A DNA stretch of 23,777 nt from a virus. Shown one piece after another: positions 6,153 to 15,916 of this stretch; position 1 is the first letter of the stretch; each line of letters starts with the position of its first letter. Location of the stretch: the IMG/VR virus record IMGVR_UViG_3300044237_000025, positions 1-23,777 of that record, one strand, 5' to 3'. The translations under genes were made by a program, and so were the position numbers. The notes under the pieces were generated by a model. The model saw only the letters and a list, made by a program, of their open reading frames with translations, had not been told where the DNA came from and made no database searches.

Positions 6153-9100
6153 ATGTTCTACAATGAAGCTGAAACAATTGAAAAAGAAAATCTTGTTTCT
6201 GATCAGGACTTTTTGATAGATGCGACTACGTTTCTTACAGCCCGTGAAGGTTATGATCCAGAGAACTTGCAAGACCCTGAAGATGTCTATGACGCCTTCA
6301 TGGAACACTTTCGGTATCAAAATGTAAACGAGGTCACTGCGCTTCGTGATCTCGCTTATGCCCAAAGCACAGATGATTTAGGGCGTGAGCGCATGGGCCG
6401 TCTCATGTCGGCTTTTGACAAGATGGATTCAGATTTAGGTCTGGCTGCTGCTGGCGATTATCTTGGCGGTGTATTTACTGCACCGTCAACATACGCTGGC
6501 CTTTTTTCTTTTGGGGCAGGAAAAGCGGGTGCTGTTGCCGCTAATCAGGGAATAAAGTTTGGTATACGACAAGCATTAGCGCCGTCATTGAAAAGAGCAG
6601 CATTGCAAACGGCACTCATTGATGCACCAGCGACAGCAGCAACAGTAGCTGCACAAGAAAAAATCCGTGTAGATACAGATCAACAAAAAGAAATGGACCT
6701 TGGTAATATTGGTTTGTCAACTGCGTTGGCTACGGTGCCTAGCTTTGGTCTTTCCACCGCAGCCGGTGTAAAGCGTGAGTTGAGTGCTTTTGGCGGGGAG
6801 AAAATACTGCTAGAAACTAAAAAGATGTCAAAGAAAGCCCATGAGGAAGCATTTGGCGTCTACTCAAAAGAGGTGCTAGATTCAGATACTGCCGCTGGAA
6901 AACTAGCAAGAGACTTTCAAGAGGATTTAAACAAGAAATCTCTATCAGAGACCATACCGGAAGACCTAGCTAAAGGAAAAAAACTACGTGAAGAGAGAAT
7001 AGCAAAGGGTCAAATTCCCGCAGGACTTGACGAAACAATAATTGCAAACATCTCCGCTGCTGGCGCTAGGGTGTACAGCATGATACCACCACGCCTTATA
7101 GAAGAGGGTGCTGATGCTGGTAAGCGTTTGGCTAAAGGCAGTAAAGAAGATTTAGAAGAACGCTTCACGTCTCGCATTGAGCGTGGGTTGCTTGGCGGTG
7201 AACTGAAGACTGAAGAGTTCGCCCGTGTTCTTAAAGAACATAACATCACGATAGAACAGCTTGGTTATCTGTACGCAGAAGAAGTGTCTCGTGCTGGTAG
7301 AATACTTGGTTCGCAGGGACGCATATCAAAAGAAGCATCTAAACAAATGCTCAAAACCATGCATGAACTTGATGCAAAGCTACTTGACATGGGCAGCTTC
7401 ACATCAACTGCCAAACGCAGACTAAATGAAGAAACTGGTGTGGACATTCTGGGTGTAGTCGGGAAGGGCGTAAGGCACCTAGACAAAGCTAGAATTGGTC
7501 TTATGACAATTCAGTTTGCTACAACTGCACGTAACACAACTAATGGTTACATGCGTAACTATGTGTACGGTCTAGACAATTTGGGTGCTGGCGTTGCTCG
7601 TGTTGTTGCTGGCGGTGCGAAGTTATCAACGGTGGGTATTTTTGACACTATTGCCAGAGAAGAAGCAGGTAGGGCTGTCCGGGCAGGTGTAGCGCAATTG
7701 CGTACAGGCGCACAGTCTATGATGATGAAAGACCTGTGGTTAAACACTACTAGTGTTACCACAGATGCTGCCGTGCGACTTTTAAAAGACACAGAACTTG
7801 GAAACAATGCTGTAGCAAAAGAACTATTTAAAGAAATGGGAGACATTGGCAGCTTTACAGACGCAGATGGTGGTCTGGTAGCTACGGCTCGTTGGCTCAA
7901 CGGCTTGAACACAATGAGTGATAACATGTTCAAACGCGCTATTTTTAGCCGTGAATTGGACAGGCTTATCTTTACACAAACAGGTGAATCCCTAGAAACT
8001 GTGTTGAAAGAAGGTAAGTTTCCGCTAATAGACAATAAGCTAATTGCAGAAGCGGCAAATGAAGCCCTTGAATTTACTTATCAAACTGGTAGGTTTAAAG
8101 GTAGAGAGGGTATCGCCAATGATATATTTGACACAACAATTAAAGTGTTTAGCACTCCGGGCCTGTCGGCAGCAGTTCCCTTCCCCCGTTACCTTGTAAA
8201 TCAACTTAGATTTTGGTACGAACATATGCCAGTGTTAGGCATGGTAAATATGGGCGGTATTTTAAATAAACCCGGCAAGAAAGGAACATACAATAAGTTA
8301 AAACTTGATGCCGATAGTTTTGGAAAACAGATTACGGGTGGCGCAACTCTGTTTGCTTTCCTGCAAATGAGGGCAAATCTGGGTGATGAATCTACAGGTG
8401 CGTTTGAATATAATTATCCAGAGCCAGATCAAGGGTATTTTGCACAGGCAACTGGAGTAGGCGGCACAGGTTTCTTTGACGCTCGTGCTTCACTTGGTCC
8501 TTTCGCAATGTTTGCTGCTGTAGCAGATGTTCTATATCGCATGATGCCCCACCTTGACGAAGAAACATATATGTTCACTCCGCAAAATCCAGACGTTGCG
8601 AAAGGCATTACCACTTCTCCACGAGATTTAGTATTCGCTTTGACAGGAGGATTAGGACGGGCTGGTACAGGTGCAAACATTATTGATGCGGGTGTTGATA
8701 TCGCCCTTAATGGACTTGACTCTGGCGACACAATGGAAAATATTTCGGAAAACTTTGTGGAGTTTGTAGGTGACTTGGTAAACTCAACAACTGTGGGCGC
8801 TGGCGTCATAAAAGATATGGTTGCTACAGTCGATCCTGATTTTAGAAAAGTTCCAGACAACACAGATGTTAGCCTGATGGGATACTTTATGAAACAGGCG
8901 ACACGTTCTTTCCCACAAACGTATGATAAAAACCTTGACGGTTTATACACTCCCTTTGGATATTATACAGGTTTAGGTCCAGAGAGGGAGGGATATACGC
9001 AGATACCCACGAGAAGCACGGGTATTGATGTTGTTAATCCCATACTGAAGCAGCTTACAGGCTTAACAGAGCAACAAGAACGAACCGCTGTTGAGAGAGA

Positions 9101-9644
9101 ACTTAGTCGTCTTCGTTTTGATTTTGTTGAAATAACACCAAAAAGAATTAGGATGGACAAGCCCTTTACAAACGAAGCAAGAGGAATTATGGGAAAATAT
9201 GTAGAGCGAGAGATTGCCTCTTACATACAGTCCGATACATATCTTAATAGTGGAATGTCTGATGTTGAAAAGCGCATTGCGCTTGATAACAGATTGTCAG
9301 AATTTCAGACAAAAGCTAGGGCAATGGTATTAGACCCCAATAGAGCGACATCAGATGAAGAAGTGAACCGCATTCATCGTGCCATGTTCTATAATTTAAG
9401 TAGAAAAGATAGACAAATACTTAATCATAGATACAGAGACATACTACGCAAGCAAGGATGGACTGCGGATACCTCTGAAGAAATAACAGGAGATTTGGCA
9501 GACGATGGTGCTTTTGTAAGGGCATTTGCTATCTTGGAAGATATGAGAAGCAGTGAACCAGACATCCACGCTCGTTTTGAGAGAGATTATGACTACGTAA
9601 AATCTTCTCTAGGTAGAAAAATGTCATTACCATTCTTCAAATAA
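6153..9644 (+). CDS. Very large virion protein, possible ejection protein (1163 aa)
   Basis: This is the largest gene of the window and the last of its arm. Size and terminal position resemble T7 gp16 (about 1300 residues), but I see no lytic transglycosylase motif near the N-terminus. Visible traits are Gly/Ala-rich hydrophobic stretches around residues 95-160, a long charged helical zone (about 205-440), a conserved-looking segment LMTIQFATTARNTTNGYMRN (about 450-470), aromatic patches such as PRYLVNQLRFWYEHMP (about 678-693), and a basic C-terminal 200 residues. It starts 3 bases after the previous stop with only a weak site, suggesting coupled translation. It stops directly at a hairpin terminator. 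DNA ejection is inferred. Confidence 0.5.
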   Translation: MFYNEAETIEKENLVSDQDFLIDATTFLTAREGYDPENLQDPEDVYDAFMEHFRYQNVNEVTALRDLAYAQSTDDLGRERMGRLMSAFDKMDSDLGLAAAGDYLGGVFTAPSTYAGLFSFGAGKAGAVAANQGIKFGIRQALAPSLKRAALQTALIDAPATAATVAAQEKIRVDTDQQKEMDLGNIGLSTALATVPSFGLSTAAGVKRELSAFGGEKILLETKKMSKKAHEEAFGVYSKEVLDSDTAAGKLARDFQEDLNKKSLSETIPEDLAKGKKLREERIAKGQIPAGLDETIIANISAAGARVYSMIPPRLIEEGADAGKRLAKGSKEDLEERFTSRIERGLLGGELKTEEFARVLKEHNITIEQLGYLYAEEVSRAGRILGSQGRISKEASKQMLKTMHELDAKLLDMGSFTSTAKRRLNEETGVDILGVVGKGVRHLDKARIGLMTIQFATTARNTTNGYMRNYVYGLDNLGAGVARVVAGGAKLSTVGIFDTIAREEAGRAVRAGVAQLRTGAQSMMMKDLWLNTTSVTTDAAVRLLKDTELGNNAVAKELFKEMGDIGSFTDADGGLVATARWLNGLNTMSDNMFKRAIFSRELDRLIFTQTGESLETVLKEGKFPLIDNKLIAEAANEALEFTYQTGRFKGREGIANDIFDTTIKVFSTPGLSAAVPFPRYLVNQLRFWYEHMPVLGMVNMGGILNKPGKKGTYNKLKLDADSFGKQITGGATLFAFLQMRANLGDESTGAFEYNYPEPDQGYFAQATGVGGTGFFDARASLGPFAMFAAVADVLYRMMPHLDEETYMFTPQNPDVAKGITTSPRDLVFALTGGLGRAGTGANIIDAGVDIALNGLDSGDTMENISENFVEFVGDLVNSTTVGAGVIKDMVATVDPDFRKVPDNTDVSLMGYFMKQATRSFPQTYDKNLDGLYTPFGYYTGLGPEREGYTQIPTRSTGIDVVNPILKQLTGLTEQQERTAVERELSRLRFDFVEITPKRIRMDKPFTNEARGIMGKYVEREIASYIQSDTYLNSGMSDVEKRIALDNRLSEFQTKARAMVLDPNRATSDEEVNRIHRAMFYNLSRKDRQILNHRYRDILRKQGWTADTSEEITGDLADDGAFVRAFAILEDMRSSEPDIHARFERDYDYVKSSLGRKMSLPFFK

Positions 9645-9675
9645 AAAAGGGGGGCTTAATTGCCCCCTTTTCTTT
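9643..9675. terminator. Bidirectional intrinsic terminator between convergent arms
   Basis: A run of A, a G run plus C (to 9655), a TTAATT loop, then GCCCCC and TTTT form a strong hairpin with U-tracts on both strands (TTTTCTTT on +, TTTTTTAT on -). It starts at the stop of the 1163-residue gene and its far edge touches the MazG stop codon, so it can end both arms. Confidence 0.85.
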
Positions 9676-10057
9676 ATCGGTTATCACCTGAACCTGCCAG
9701 AGTACCACGTTTCTTTCTGTCGGCCAACTTCTCCAAGTTCTTTTCCATAATGTGTCCAAGGTCCATTCCAAGTTCTTCGGCAAGCACAGCACAGTACCAC
9801 ATAACGTCGCCAATCTCGTAGGCAATCTGTATCTTCTTGGCTTCGTACTCATCGGGTGGTGCGCCGTCGCGTATAAACTTCTTGACCTTGTTAGCGATCT
9901 CTCCTGCTTCTCCTGTAAGACCAAGAGTAAGATACTCCATAGCCTTGTTCTTTGGGAAGATGGCAGTATCACATGCTGCTATTTGATAGGCTGTCCCAGT
10001 TATACCAAACATATATTTTTCCTTCATCCACTGTTTAGCTTCTTGCTCTAAGTCCAT
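9674..10057 (-). CDS. mazG: MazG-like nucleoside triphosphate pyrophosphohydrolase
   Basis: The 127-residue protein carries the MazG metal-binding pattern: E50 and E53 in GLTGEAGEIANK and E81 and D84 in YEIGDVMWY, 27 residues apart. The C-terminus KLADRKKRGTLAGSGDNR is typical of phage MazG. The family hydrolyses (d)NTPs to monophosphates and pyrophosphate in the cytoplasm. In phages it is proposed to recycle host nucleotides or lower (p)ppGpp, and the substrate here is not known. The start at 10057 is supported by GGAG 7 bases upstream and lies 23 bases inside the preceding Rmf-like gene. It is the last gene of the - arm, directly before the terminator. Confidence 0.85.
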   Translation of the reverse strand: MDLEQEAKQWMKEKYMFGITGTAYQIAACDTAIFPKNKAMEYLTLGLTGEAGEIANKVKKFIRDGAPPDEYEAKKIQIAYEIGDVMWYCAVLAEELGMDLGHIMEKNLEKLADRKKRGTLAGSGDNR

Positions 10058-10250
10058 TTAGTTTCTCCAAATTCTCAAAGTATGCAGTATTCCAACCTCT
10101 CTGCCACTCACGGCGTCCAGTAGCGTTCTTCTTGCTTATTGGATTTGCAACTTGATGGAAAAACTTTCCCCGTAGAGCCACATGACTAAATGCTGCGTAG
10201 CCGTCTTCAAAGTTTTTGAGCAGCTTCTCATTGACAATAGGTTGTTTCAT
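10035..10250 (-). CDS. Rmf/CrpP-like small protein (71 aa)
   Basis: From the ATG at 10250 the protein is MKQPIVNEKLLKNFEDGYAA..., 71 residues and basic. This start has GGAG 6 bases upstream and follows the previous stop, while an upstream in-frame ATG at 10298 lies inside the neighbour with no site. The pattern GYAA (17-20), NP (36-37), W49-x-x-GW (52-53) and a following Ala resembles the Rmf/CrpP fold family, whose bacterial member Rmf binds the ribosome and drives its dimerisation during hibernation. The similarity is short, so function is inferred. It overlaps MazG by 16 bases. A generic phage protein with a chance GW motif remains possible. Confidence 0.5.
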   Translation of the reverse strand: MKQPIVNEKLLKNFEDGYAAFSHVALRGKFFHQVANPISKKNATGRREWQRGWNTAYFENLEKLNGLRARS

Positions 10251-10251
10251 T

Positions 10252-10458
10252 TTAGTCTCCTTCGGGCCAGTTTTTGAGAATTGCAAGTCTATCTTCATGC
10301 ACAGCCATCTTATCTAACTCACCTTGCATTGCTTCCATAATATCAGAATGTTCTCCGATACCCGCTGGATTTTTTAGATACGCTTCAATATTCATCATAT
10401 GAAGATGAATGTTAGACTGTGCATGATTTTTTAGCACATTAATCATTTTTGTTCTCAT
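10252..10458 (-). CDS. Hypothetical protein (68 aa)
   Basis: The protein is helical and mixed in charge. It has a central NIEAYLKNPAGIGEHSD segment that I recall from an uncharacterised phage protein family, and the C-terminus AILKNWPEGD. It contains no cysteine or membrane segment. AGGAG lies 7 bases before the ATG at 10458. Its 3' end provides the GGAG of the Rmf-like gene, and its 5' end overlaps a 43-residue gene by 20 bases. It belongs to the chain of tiny genes between the reductase and MazG. Function unknown. Confidence 0.6.
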   Translation of the reverse strand: MRTKMINVLKNHAQSNIHLHMMNIEAYLKNPAGIGEHSDIMEAMQGELDKMAVHEDRLAILKNWPEGD

Positions 10459-10693: not shown

Positions 10694-12634
10694 TCATGCT
10701 GCGTTCAAATCAACCACTTCACAGGCATCTGCGGTGCAAGCTAATTCACGACCACCAGAAGTGGTGTCCTCTTTTTCATAGTCTTGTAGCCATGTCCAAT
10801 CTATAGACTTTGGCATTTTATTTAGCATCTCACCGTACTCTTCTACTGTACAATCTTGATAAGGTGCCTGTTTATATGTATGCTCACTGAAAGGTAAGAA
10901 GCTAATACCAGACACTTCATCAAAGTGATCATACACCCATGATCCTACTTCCATCCACTCATGCTCTTTGACAGAGATGGTGACAGAGGGCTTGTGTTCA
11001 CACCAGTGCCGCTGATACAGGAGCCACAGTTCAAGCTGCTCAATGGCAGACATGTCGAACCGGGTAACTGCTCCATGTGGAGACTTCATCGGGAAGCTAA
11101 ACACTGTTGTGCTATCAGGCTTCATTACATCAGGCTCAGACGGCACACCGGCACTGATCATAAATTGCGTCAGCGGGTCTTTGTTGTCGCCACGTACTGT
11201 ACGAACGTAGTACGGATTGTGACGAGCGTGGATGCCAGAGGCACTGTCTACAAGCTGTGAGACTGTTCCAGACGGCTTGACACATGTAATCGCTGCTGAC
11301 TGTGGGATACCAAGCTGTTCTGCTATAGCGGCGTTAGTAACGATGGCCTGTTCCTTTAGTGCGTTTAGCGTAGCGCCTATGTTCATACCAAGATGTGCAG
11401 ATTTACCCGACATCATGGCGTTGTCCATGATGCCTGTTAGCGACACTCCAAGCAATCGTTCTTCTTCCGTATTCTTTTTCCACACATTACGAAGATACTT
11501 GAAATCTGTTAGTGTAGATTGGAATGTGCCAAGAATAGTAGCAAGACGAACCTTCTCAGTAAGTGTTTGTTGCGTGTCTGATGCACGAACAACAACCTCT
11601 GACAGATTACAGAACTGATACGGGCGTAAGATAATTTCACTACATGGATTGCAGCCAAAGTCTTGATCTGCATCACGACGTCCATTTTTAGCAGCTTGTT
11701 CTTTTGCTGCTTTGCGGTTGAAGATACCACGCTCACCAGACTTGCTTTCATACAAGGATACCCACTCACGCATGAATGTACCCATCTCTGGCTTGCCTTT
11801 GTAGGCAACGCTGTTGTTTGCAAGCGCACGTTGCCCCTCACCTTCCCACCACTGACCTGACTTAGCATGACGCATTTGGTCATCGTTCAGGTTAGATAGA
11901 CTGATGAGTGCGCTTCGCCTAACACCCCCAACGACGACAACCTCACCAATCTTGCACATCAAATCGTGGCATTCAATGGGAAACAGCCCACGGCCTGATG
12001 CCTTCTTGAACATATCAACTGTAAACTGAAACAGTTCCTCAAGTGGGGCTGGGCCACTCGCACGACCACCGAAGGTCTTGAGACGTGCGCCAGCAGGACG
12101 AACCTCTGACGTGTCCCATTGTGGTACTTGCCCTGCGTACAAAAGCGAGATTAGTTCCCGCAGGGATTTGGCCCAGCCCGGACGAGAGTCGCCAACTTTG
12201 ATAACCGTATCGGTGGTATGCATATCTTCGTTGACGACAGGCAGCTTCTCTGTGTGGTGACGCTCCACAGAAAAGCCTACACCAGTGCCACACATGAGGA
12301 TATACATTGTCTCGTCAAAGGCACGAGGACTATCCACTGGTACATAGGAGCAATTGTAACCACCAACATGGCATCTATCCAGTGCGGGACCGGCAGTCAT
12401 CAACGCTCTCATGCTTGGCATGATGTCTTGGTTAAGCACAGCTTCTTCAAGTTCTGCGCGTAGTTCATCTGACAGGGCATAGTTATGCTTCTGTCCAAGG
12501 TGTTTTTCCATATAATCAAAGTATCGCTCGACTGTTTCACTCCAAGTCTCACGACGTTGTTCATCATCTTTCCAACGGGCATACCGGGAAAGAGCAATAA
12601 AATTTTGATAGTCCGTTGGCAAGTAATTGTTCAT
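10694..12634 (-). CDS. nrdJ: Class II (B12-dependent) ribonucleotide reductase
   Basis: The 646-residue enzyme matches the monomeric adenosylcobalamin-dependent ribonucleoside-triphosphate reductases, which make dNTPs from NTPs without oxygen or a second subunit. Visible residues are C95 (in YNCSYV), active-site NPCSE (C331 and E333), C342 in FCNLSEV, the CVKPSGTVSQ loop (451-460), and a C-terminal C633-x4-C638 pair that reloads the active-site disulphide. It is somewhat shorter than the Lactobacillus enzyme (about 740). GGAG lies 7 bases before the ATG at 12634. The phage would need cobalamin from the host. Neighbouring DUF3310 and MazG genes place it in a nucleotide-supply block. Confidence 0.93.
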   Translation of the reverse strand: MNNYLPTDYQNFIALSRYARWKDDEQRRETWSETVERYFDYMEKHLGQKHNYALSDELRAELEEAVLNQDIMPSMRALMTAGPALDRCHVGGYNCSYVPVDSPRAFDETMYILMCGTGVGFSVERHHTEKLPVVNEDMHTTDTVIKVGDSRPGWAKSLRELISLLYAGQVPQWDTSEVRPAGARLKTFGGRASGPAPLEELFQFTVDMFKKASGRGLFPIECHDLMCKIGEVVVVGGVRRSALISLSNLNDDQMRHAKSGQWWEGEGQRALANNSVAYKGKPEMGTFMREWVSLYESKSGERGIFNRKAAKEQAAKNGRRDADQDFGCNPCSEIILRPYQFCNLSEVVVRASDTQQTLTEKVRLATILGTFQSTLTDFKYLRNVWKKNTEEERLLGVSLTGIMDNAMMSGKSAHLGMNIGATLNALKEQAIVTNAAIAEQLGIPQSAAITCVKPSGTVSQLVDSASGIHARHNPYYVRTVRGDNKDPLTQFMISAGVPSEPDVMKPDSTTVFSFPMKSPHGAVTRFDMSAIEQLELWLLYQRHWCEHKPSVTISVKEHEWMEVGSWVYDHFDEVSGISFLPFSEHTYKQAPYQDCTVEEYGEMLNKMPKSIDWTWLQDYEKEDTTSGGRELACTADACEVVDLNAA

Positions 12635-12797: not shown

Positions 12798-13050
12798 CGT
12801 AGCAGCCTTCTACTTCCTCTATCAGTTTTCCCAAATACCACTGTGCTTTCTTCAGGTCTTCTGTTCCATTCTTATAGCGGTAACGCCATAGATACTTTAT
12901 AATGTTGCCTTGCAGGTAATACTCGTAACCTTCCTCTGTGGCTGCGCGAATAGCGTCAATGCACTCTATACCCGCTTTATTGTAGTGCGGAGGGCTGTTT
13001 ACCATATCTGCCTTTTTAGCAGCCTCTTTCATAAACTGTTCATGTCGCAT
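12787..13050 (-). CDS. DUF3310 protein (T7 gp1.7-like)
   Basis: The 87-residue protein shows the DUF3310 core: VNSPPHYNKAGIECID (17-32), then GNIIKYLWRYRYKNG (48-62) and a DLKKAQWYL helix. T7 gene 1.7, which contains this domain, acts as a nucleoside monophosphate kinase, so a role in dNTP supply is plausible. The protein here is much shorter than gp1.7 and the activity is not shown. The start overlaps the previous stop (TAATG), with AAAGG 9 bases upstream. A start at the internal methionine 7 is possible. It stands two genes before the ribonucleotide reductase, which fits nucleotide metabolism. Confidence 0.8.
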   Translation of the reverse strand: MRHEQFMKEAAKKADMVNSPPHYNKAGIECIDAIRAATEEGYEYYLQGNIIKYLWRYRYKNGTEDLKKAQWYLGKLIEEVEGCYDES

Positions 13051-13394
13051 TATGCATTACCTTTCGTTCTACTCTTGAAGTTTAGCTTTACTATATTGCT
13101 TTCTGTATACTCTATTTCTGGCTCAAAGTCAATGTTTAGATCGTCTTCGTCTGGCTCTTCAATAAACTTTTCTATTTCTTTTATCATATGGGGATTCTTT
13201 TCCATATAGGCCACGGAGCAGGCAACAATATCACTTAGATGTTTCATATGCAAATAACTTTCTCGTTCAAGAGGATTGTGTTCATCTGTAATAATGCTGA
13301 CTTCTAACTCGCCTGTCCATACAAAATCTTCATCAACCACGGGCTTTAGTTGTATACAAAATGATTTTGGATCAATTCTTCTGGTAATTTTCAT
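13050..13394 (-). CDS. Hypothetical acidic protein (114 aa)
   Basis: I do not recognise this protein. It begins with a basic MKITRRIDPKSF, has a beta-like first half (WTGELEVSIITD), a helical middle, and a very acidic stretch EEPDEDDLNIDFEPEIEY (about 79-96) before a basic end. AGGAG lies 6 bases before the ATG at 13394. The stop overlaps the DUF3310 start. It has one or two isolated cysteines and no membrane segment. Its place between endonuclease I and DUF3310 suggests a role in DNA or nucleotide metabolism, without direct evidence. Confidence 0.6.
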   Translation of the reverse strand: MKITRRIDPKSFCIQLKPVVDEDFVWTGELEVSIITDEHNPLERESYLHMKHLSDIVACSVAYMEKNPHMIKEIEKFIEEPDEDDLNIDFEPEIEYTESNIVKLNFKSRTKGNA

Positions 13395-15887: not shown

Positions 15888-15916
15888 GTTATATCACGCT
15901 ACGTCCTTTGTGTCAA
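15888..15916 (-). promoter_or_regulatory. Sigma70-like promoter before the ssDNA-binding gene
   Basis: On the - strand, TTGACA (15916-15911, full -35 match) is followed after 17 bases by TATAAC (15893-15888, five of six for -10). The expected start is near 15881, about 24 bases before the ATG at 15857. The -35 box lies inside the last codons of the polymerase gene, whose stop is in the spacer. It would give the SSB-to-MazG block its own transcript. Confidence 0.75.

Follow-up and report, generated by a model that had tools for sequence, protein, structure and literature searches.

The window, by which we mean the whole 23,777-base IMG/VR virus record analysed here, belongs to a marine phage related to the HMO-2011-type phages, which count as one of the dominant phage groups in the sea (PMC9038755). 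For the operon between positions 9500 and 13500, the nearest sequences were those of Puniceispirillum phage HMO-2011 and of roseophages of that type. Between positions 15894 and 17936 (minus strand) the window encodes a family A DNA polymerase containing a DnaJ-like stretch of CxxCxGxG type, by which HMO-2011-type phages are known to be marked (PMC9038755). No tRNA genes that could serve as a pointer to the host were found in the window, and a host link through two genome matches was discarded: these were small metagenome-bin contigs, and the one labelled Maricaulis has the same length (8235) as an IMG/VR viral contig. The following features were located at the end of the operon:

10694 to 12634, minus strand: class II (B12-dependent) ribonucleotide reductase (RNR), constant upstream neighbour of the rmf-like gene
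10252 to 10458, minus strand: 68-residue phrog_1811 protein (E 8.1e-24), upstream neighbour of the rmf-like gene
10257 to 10262, minus strand: Shine-Dalgarno-like AAGGAG of the rmf-like gene, as read from the sequence
10035 to 10250, minus strand: rmf-like gene, 71 residues, predicted net charge +7
10065 to 10068, minus strand: Shine-Dalgarno-like GGAG of mazG, as read from the sequence, within the rmf-like coding sequence
10035 to 10057, minus strand: reading-frame overlap of the rmf-like end and the mazG start, 23 bp with the stop included
9674 to 10057, minus strand: mazG, 127 residues with a single MazG domain, its ATG at 10057 inside the rmf-like gene
9650 to 9667, minus strand: terminator-like hairpin 3' of mazG, at the end of the replication operon and convergent with the late operon

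Both genes lie on the minus strand where an earlier note on this DNA had placed them, and they overlap by 23 bp. The overlap as such agreed with that note, as did the length of 71 residues and the presence of GYAA, NP and W-x-x-GW words in the upstream product (G17-Y18-A19-A20, N36-P37 and W49-Q-R-G-W53). The rmf-like reading frame is a real gene, on the basis of its dN/dS of 0.12 against the nearest relative (purifying selection) and of relatives in 206 distinct loci; synonymous changes were saturated in most of the other pairs. Throughout a family of 204 members G17, F21, E48, W49, R51 and G52 were invariant, Y57 was nearly so and N60 was conserved in 96%. The basic character was the same as in the ribosome modulation factor RMF (mean charge +6.2 in the family and +5.8 in RMF). 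Judged from these invariant residues and from PF04957 being the most frequent Pfam match of the relatives, the shared words are beyond chance. The idea that the C-terminal ENLEKLN is conserved merely through the mazG overlap was rejected, this segment being kept also in relatives without mazG.

The product of the downstream gene matched the MazG family PF03819 above its cut-off (E 1.1e-8, 35.7 bits against 22) as well as phrog_229 (E 1.2e-35), and its metal-binding motif (E50xxE53 ... E81xxD84) reads as intact, so that the MazG identity proposed earlier stands and the protein is predicted to be an ordinary single-domain NTP pyrophosphohydrolase. The earlier note had further supposed that MazG may lower (p)ppGpp. 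For phage MazG this claim goes back to work in E. coli, whose own MazG was reported to lower the alarmone (cited in PMC9038755). The purified MazG of cyanophage S-PM2, likewise a phage MazG-type pyrophosphohydrolase, neither binds nor hydrolyses (p)ppGpp and prefers dGTP and dCTP (PMC6850273), and a survey of HMO-2011-type phages described mazG as sporadic in the group and left its role open (PMC9038755). The window sequence offers no argument against the cyanophage result, and alarmone control by MazG is not supported. Moreover, in E. coli it is (p)ppGpp that induces rmf (PMC8778775); on this axis an alarmone-lowering MazG would therefore work against a phage Rmf. The rmf-like gene and mazG very probably do not form an alarmone pair.

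Profile searches with the window Rmf-like protein alone gave zero matches in Pfam, NCBIfam or PHROG, and the Rmf/CrpP models were reached only by its relatives. PF04957 was matched by 16 of 49 relatives (best E 7.8e-4) and by 22 of 32 relatives with a short linker, being the Pfam family matched by most of the latter; four of the 49 matched the NCBIfam phage Rmf-like model NF041887 (best E 1.8e-5), and relatives also matched the Rmf/CrpP family model NF041886 (E 3.4e-4). Where scored individually, all these matches lay under the curated cut-offs (best relative 19.9 bits against the gathering cut-off of 27.9 for PF04957, and 24.1 against 40 for NF041887). Comparison of whole families was clearer: the profile of 204 Rmf-like members scored 24.2 against that of 26 true RMFs, and the profile of 83 short-linker members scored 25.0, in each case more than all of 300 column shuffles. 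The same comparison was marginal with the first 49 members (one of 300 shuffles reached the score), and with a small subset six of 300 shuffles did. The family profile, run against PDB sequences, retrieved no RMF but only a dynein-complex chain (E 0.48). Resemblance to RMF is therefore real at the level of the family.

Predicted structures followed a similar trend. Modelled with AlphaFold2 (pLDDT 81.9), the window protein showed one helix at residues 8-22 and a second at 44-66, with a long linker between them predicted as a beta hairpin. With VIA, RMF occupied four of the top five rows for this model (Z 5.2-5.5), the unrelated complement C5a being among them (5.2), whereas Foldseek gave nothing significant, either against the PDB, where no RMF appeared at E ≤ 10, or against viral models, again without RMF. 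For the fold comparison this weaker model was replaced by that of a short-linker relative, L059 (pLDDT 90.3). Foldseek then placed RMF entries 2jrm and 9iot at the top (probability 0.96, TM 0.64-0.68), and in VIA three RMF entries led all others (Z 7.1, 6.4, and 6.3), with complement anaphylatoxin domains at Z 4.6-5.0; by the tool's own note these values are middling. The helix-linker-helix fold of RMF was thus predicted for L059 by both tools and for the window model by VIA. Because sequence and structure agree independently, and not on the Z values alone, we have little doubt that the protein has the Rmf fold. The Rmf-like nature claimed earlier held in this sense, as a matter of fold seen through the family and L059. 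The same motifs also run in the same order as in RMF (G16-Y17, P30, W40, and G43-W44 in register). As a phage gene with this fold and with the words G-Y, P and W-x-x-G-[WFY] in register, it falls among phage Rmf/CrpP-fold genes in the broad sense. A shared RMF fold does not, however, show function.

In RMF, ribosome binding has been assigned to R3, K5, and R11 and dimerisation to G23 and R45 (reviewed in PMC8778775). A merged alignment showed that the packing residues G16, W40, and G43 were kept in all 49 phage members included, Y17 in 44 and P30 in 37. The columns of R3, K5, and R11 were unconserved, most of the 49 members having a gap or a different residue there (I, K, or E at R11); the N-terminal part of this alignment is uncertain, and no RMF-like N-terminal K/R-rich motif was evident among the aligned members. 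At R45 the phage proteins carried N (42 members), E (six) or D (one) and never R, at G20 all 49 carried F, and G23 was kept in 23 members and is absent from the window protein. The mapped functional residues of RMF are thus essentially lost, leaving only those involved in packing, and ribosome silencing, the role that the earlier note suggested for the protein, is unsupported because R3, K5, R11, and R45 are lost in the family. The phage branch has invariants of its own among its 204 members (F21, E48, R51, and, nearly, Y57 and N60). E48, R51, N54, Y57, and N60 follow one another at every third position along helix 2 and could form one face.

In viral contigs, the best 80 MazG relatives had the Rmf-like gene directly upstream in 78 cases, and in 70 of these 80 loci the stop-to-stop distance was 361 bp, as in the window. 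The remaining two carried it about 0.8 kb downstream of mazG, behind an endonuclease-like gene; this arrangement was seen at 3494-4709 in L162 and at 3977-5216 in L206, and the intervening gene is CxxC-rich and, by eye, of HNH/endonuclease VII type. Seen from the Rmf-like side the association was looser: among 195 distinct loci that either extended far enough downstream or gave a direct match, mazG came directly next in 120 and not in 75, and it was next in none of 40 loci with a class I RNR. These counts start from similarity to the Rmf-like family and so describe one phage group, not all phages. Cultured members displayed both arrangements. HMO-2011, CRP-1, and CRP-345 share the order RNR, small genes, Rmf-like gene overlapping mazG, and convergent virion gene, and their Rmf-like proteins, 28-38% identical to that of the window, stand as 'hypothetical protein' in the records; in CRP-3, CRP-212, and CRP-235 MazG is annotated before the RNR and the Rmf-like frame follows it, unannotated directly after the RNR in CRP-3 (MK613345, 12882-13016) and CRP-212 (MZ892988, 12998-13147). 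The pair put forward in the earlier note is therefore conserved within a subgroup, where the overlapping arrangement recurs, and is not obligatory in general; that the two genes work as a functional pair is not supported.

The constant neighbour was the RNR. Of 206 distinct Rmf-like loci, 201 had it no more than 3 kb upstream (class II in 153, class I in 48); of the other five, four were truncated and CRP-3 has an RNR directly upstream according to the record annotation, so that every assessable locus had one of either class. In two loci (L353 and L359) the Rmf-like gene directly followed nrdB or the RNR. A freshwater group presented the order ThyX, nrdA, nrdB, glutaredoxin-like gene, and Rmf-like gene, usually with no MazG seen. 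L155 and L274-L328, a group in which some settings are probably freshwater-like, judging from the related record MW202701, carried ThyX, class I RNR, and a glutaredoxin-like gene, with the Rmf-like gene occupying that slot. RNR class changes at least two times on the Rmf-like tree. The region read in CRP-603, a related phage with an RNR, contained no detectable Rmf-like copy. The rmf-like gene keeps its slot at the operon end after the RNR, which is no proof of a functional link; a link to the RNR was not adopted as a sure function, synteny alone being enough to explain the adjacency.

Rates of divergence differed clearly between these genes. In loci whose MazG was 93-98% identical to that of the window, median identity was 87% for the RNR, 84% for the well-conserved 68-residue phrog_1811 protein (10252-10458), 95.5% for MazG, and 54% for the Rmf-like protein. 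Within the latter the helix-2 core stayed at 83% whereas the linker, of 17 to 35 residues, dropped to 46%. Divergence of the Rmf-like protein is thus much more rapid than that of the neighbouring gene products and affects chiefly the parts other than helix 2. Such a combination of conserved helix and labile linker suits a binding partner that is itself conserved but varies in detail with the host.

Compared with RMF itself (PF04957; PDB 2jrm, 4v8g, 6h4n, and 9iot), the phage proteins are likewise basic, with two helices and a linker, and share W-x-x-G-W in helix 2, a P within the linker, and G-Y close to where helix 1 ends; they differ in lacking the N-terminal R3/K5 motif and R11, in having N in place of R45 and F in place of G20 as counted above, and in a linker that is often longer. 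The families described by NF041887 (Rmf_like_phage) and NF041886 are also phage-encoded Rmf/CrpP-fold proteins, but matches from the branch of the window, where scored individually, all lie below their curated cut-offs. The RMF-domain proteins of Agrobacterium phage Milano (PMC6588377) are small too and have G, NPY, and W-x-x-G words in common with ours, whereas they have 46 residues, belong to another clade, and sit beside a macro-domain gene with no RNR or MazG annotated alongside. Phage RMF-domain proteins were therefore already known, and the earlier statement that no such phage system had been described held, within the literature searched, for the Rmf-MazG pair alone. In that literature phage-encoded RMF appeared in genome notes and in no functional study. 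What is new is an unannotated branch outside those cut-offs that differs in functional residues and in genomic setting; any function given to it is putative.

Our preferred reading, to which we assign a probability of about 40%, is that the Rmf-like protein belongs to a branch of the Rmf/CrpP fold carried by phages and still acts on the host translation machinery through a changed surface. The ribosome as its target is equally tentative, and because the mapped binding and dimerisation residues of RMF are not kept, the target may be a different one. A basic two-helix protein, encoded among the last genes of a replication and dNTP-supply operon after the RNR, would dock on the translation machinery of the host, probably on 30S rRNA, by means of a remodelled surface made of the invariant or nearly invariant E48, R51, Y57, and N60 of helix 2, and its variable linker could fit different hosts. 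Translation would in this way be tuned during phage DNA synthesis without the formation of RMF-type 100S dimers. MazG would be a separate housekeeping enzyme trimming NTPs or dNTPs, its co-translation with the rmf-like gene in part of the group being presumably due to gene position. In a more specific picture, a widespread unannotated RMF-fold branch would have lost the hibernation chemistry and turned to host ribosomes (or their initiation step) by way of a linker adapted to the host and a new invariant surface on helix 2, with its position behind the RNR coupling its timing to dNTP synthesis. This is possible, although we would not expect all of it to hold.

The persistent RNR neighbourhood, with both RNR classes and with MazG, ThyX, and glutaredoxin as frequent companions, could also mean that the protein is an accessory factor of dNTP supply that adjusts the production of DNA precursors by binding the RNR or some other replication-module enzyme, the RMF fold being only a scaffold. 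We consider this possible but rather unlikely: the same helix-2 motif beside unrelated RNR classes speaks against specific contact with the RNR, synteny is shared by all these phages, which may simply have inherited the slot, and CRP-603 has the RNR without a detectable copy. Fast divergence and the variable linker would suit a small host-specific inhibitor or counter-defence protein whose linker recognises a host factor; the perfectly conserved positions of helix 2 point instead to a conserved target, and rapid change would also be expected after a change of host ribosome or partner, which makes this explanation unlikely. That the resemblance arose by chance, in a helical hairpin not homologous to RMF, might be argued from the sub-threshold matches, the simplicity of two-helix folds, and the anaphylatoxin domains found with L059; it is highly improbable given that sequence and structure agree independently, with the motifs in register, and that RMF came first in the Pfam matches of the relatives and, for L059, in VIA and Foldseek. 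Very improbable as well is the model of the earlier note, in which a ribosome-silencing Rmf and a (p)ppGpp-lowering MazG jointly set the growth state of the host. Its Rmf fold, the gene overlap in many relatives, and the report on E. coli MazG speak for it, but the functional residues of RMF are lost, the two activities would push opposite ways, and the Rmf-like gene persists without adjacent MazG, its constant neighbour being the RNR.

Among 190 genomes of the host class searched, RMF was found above the cut-off in one. Should ribosomes be the target of the Rmf-like protein, the phage would be making its own translation modulator from the fold of a hibernation factor, in hosts mostly without RMF; should they not be, the case would show that hibernation must not be read into a small pattern of RMF-like words. 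Its function can be tested either way in cultured roseophages, the gene being 'hypothetical' or unannotated in six cultured HMO-2011-type members.

Two further genes of the window displayed low identity beside conserved neighbours. A 114-residue protein (13050-13394, minus strand), the second fast-evolving gene of the operon, was about 31% identical where its flanking genes were 76-95% identical. The convergent 1163-residue virion protein (6153-9667) was 21-41% identical in phages with MazG at 93% or more, which places a mosaic boundary between the replication and late modules at or near the terminator after mazG.
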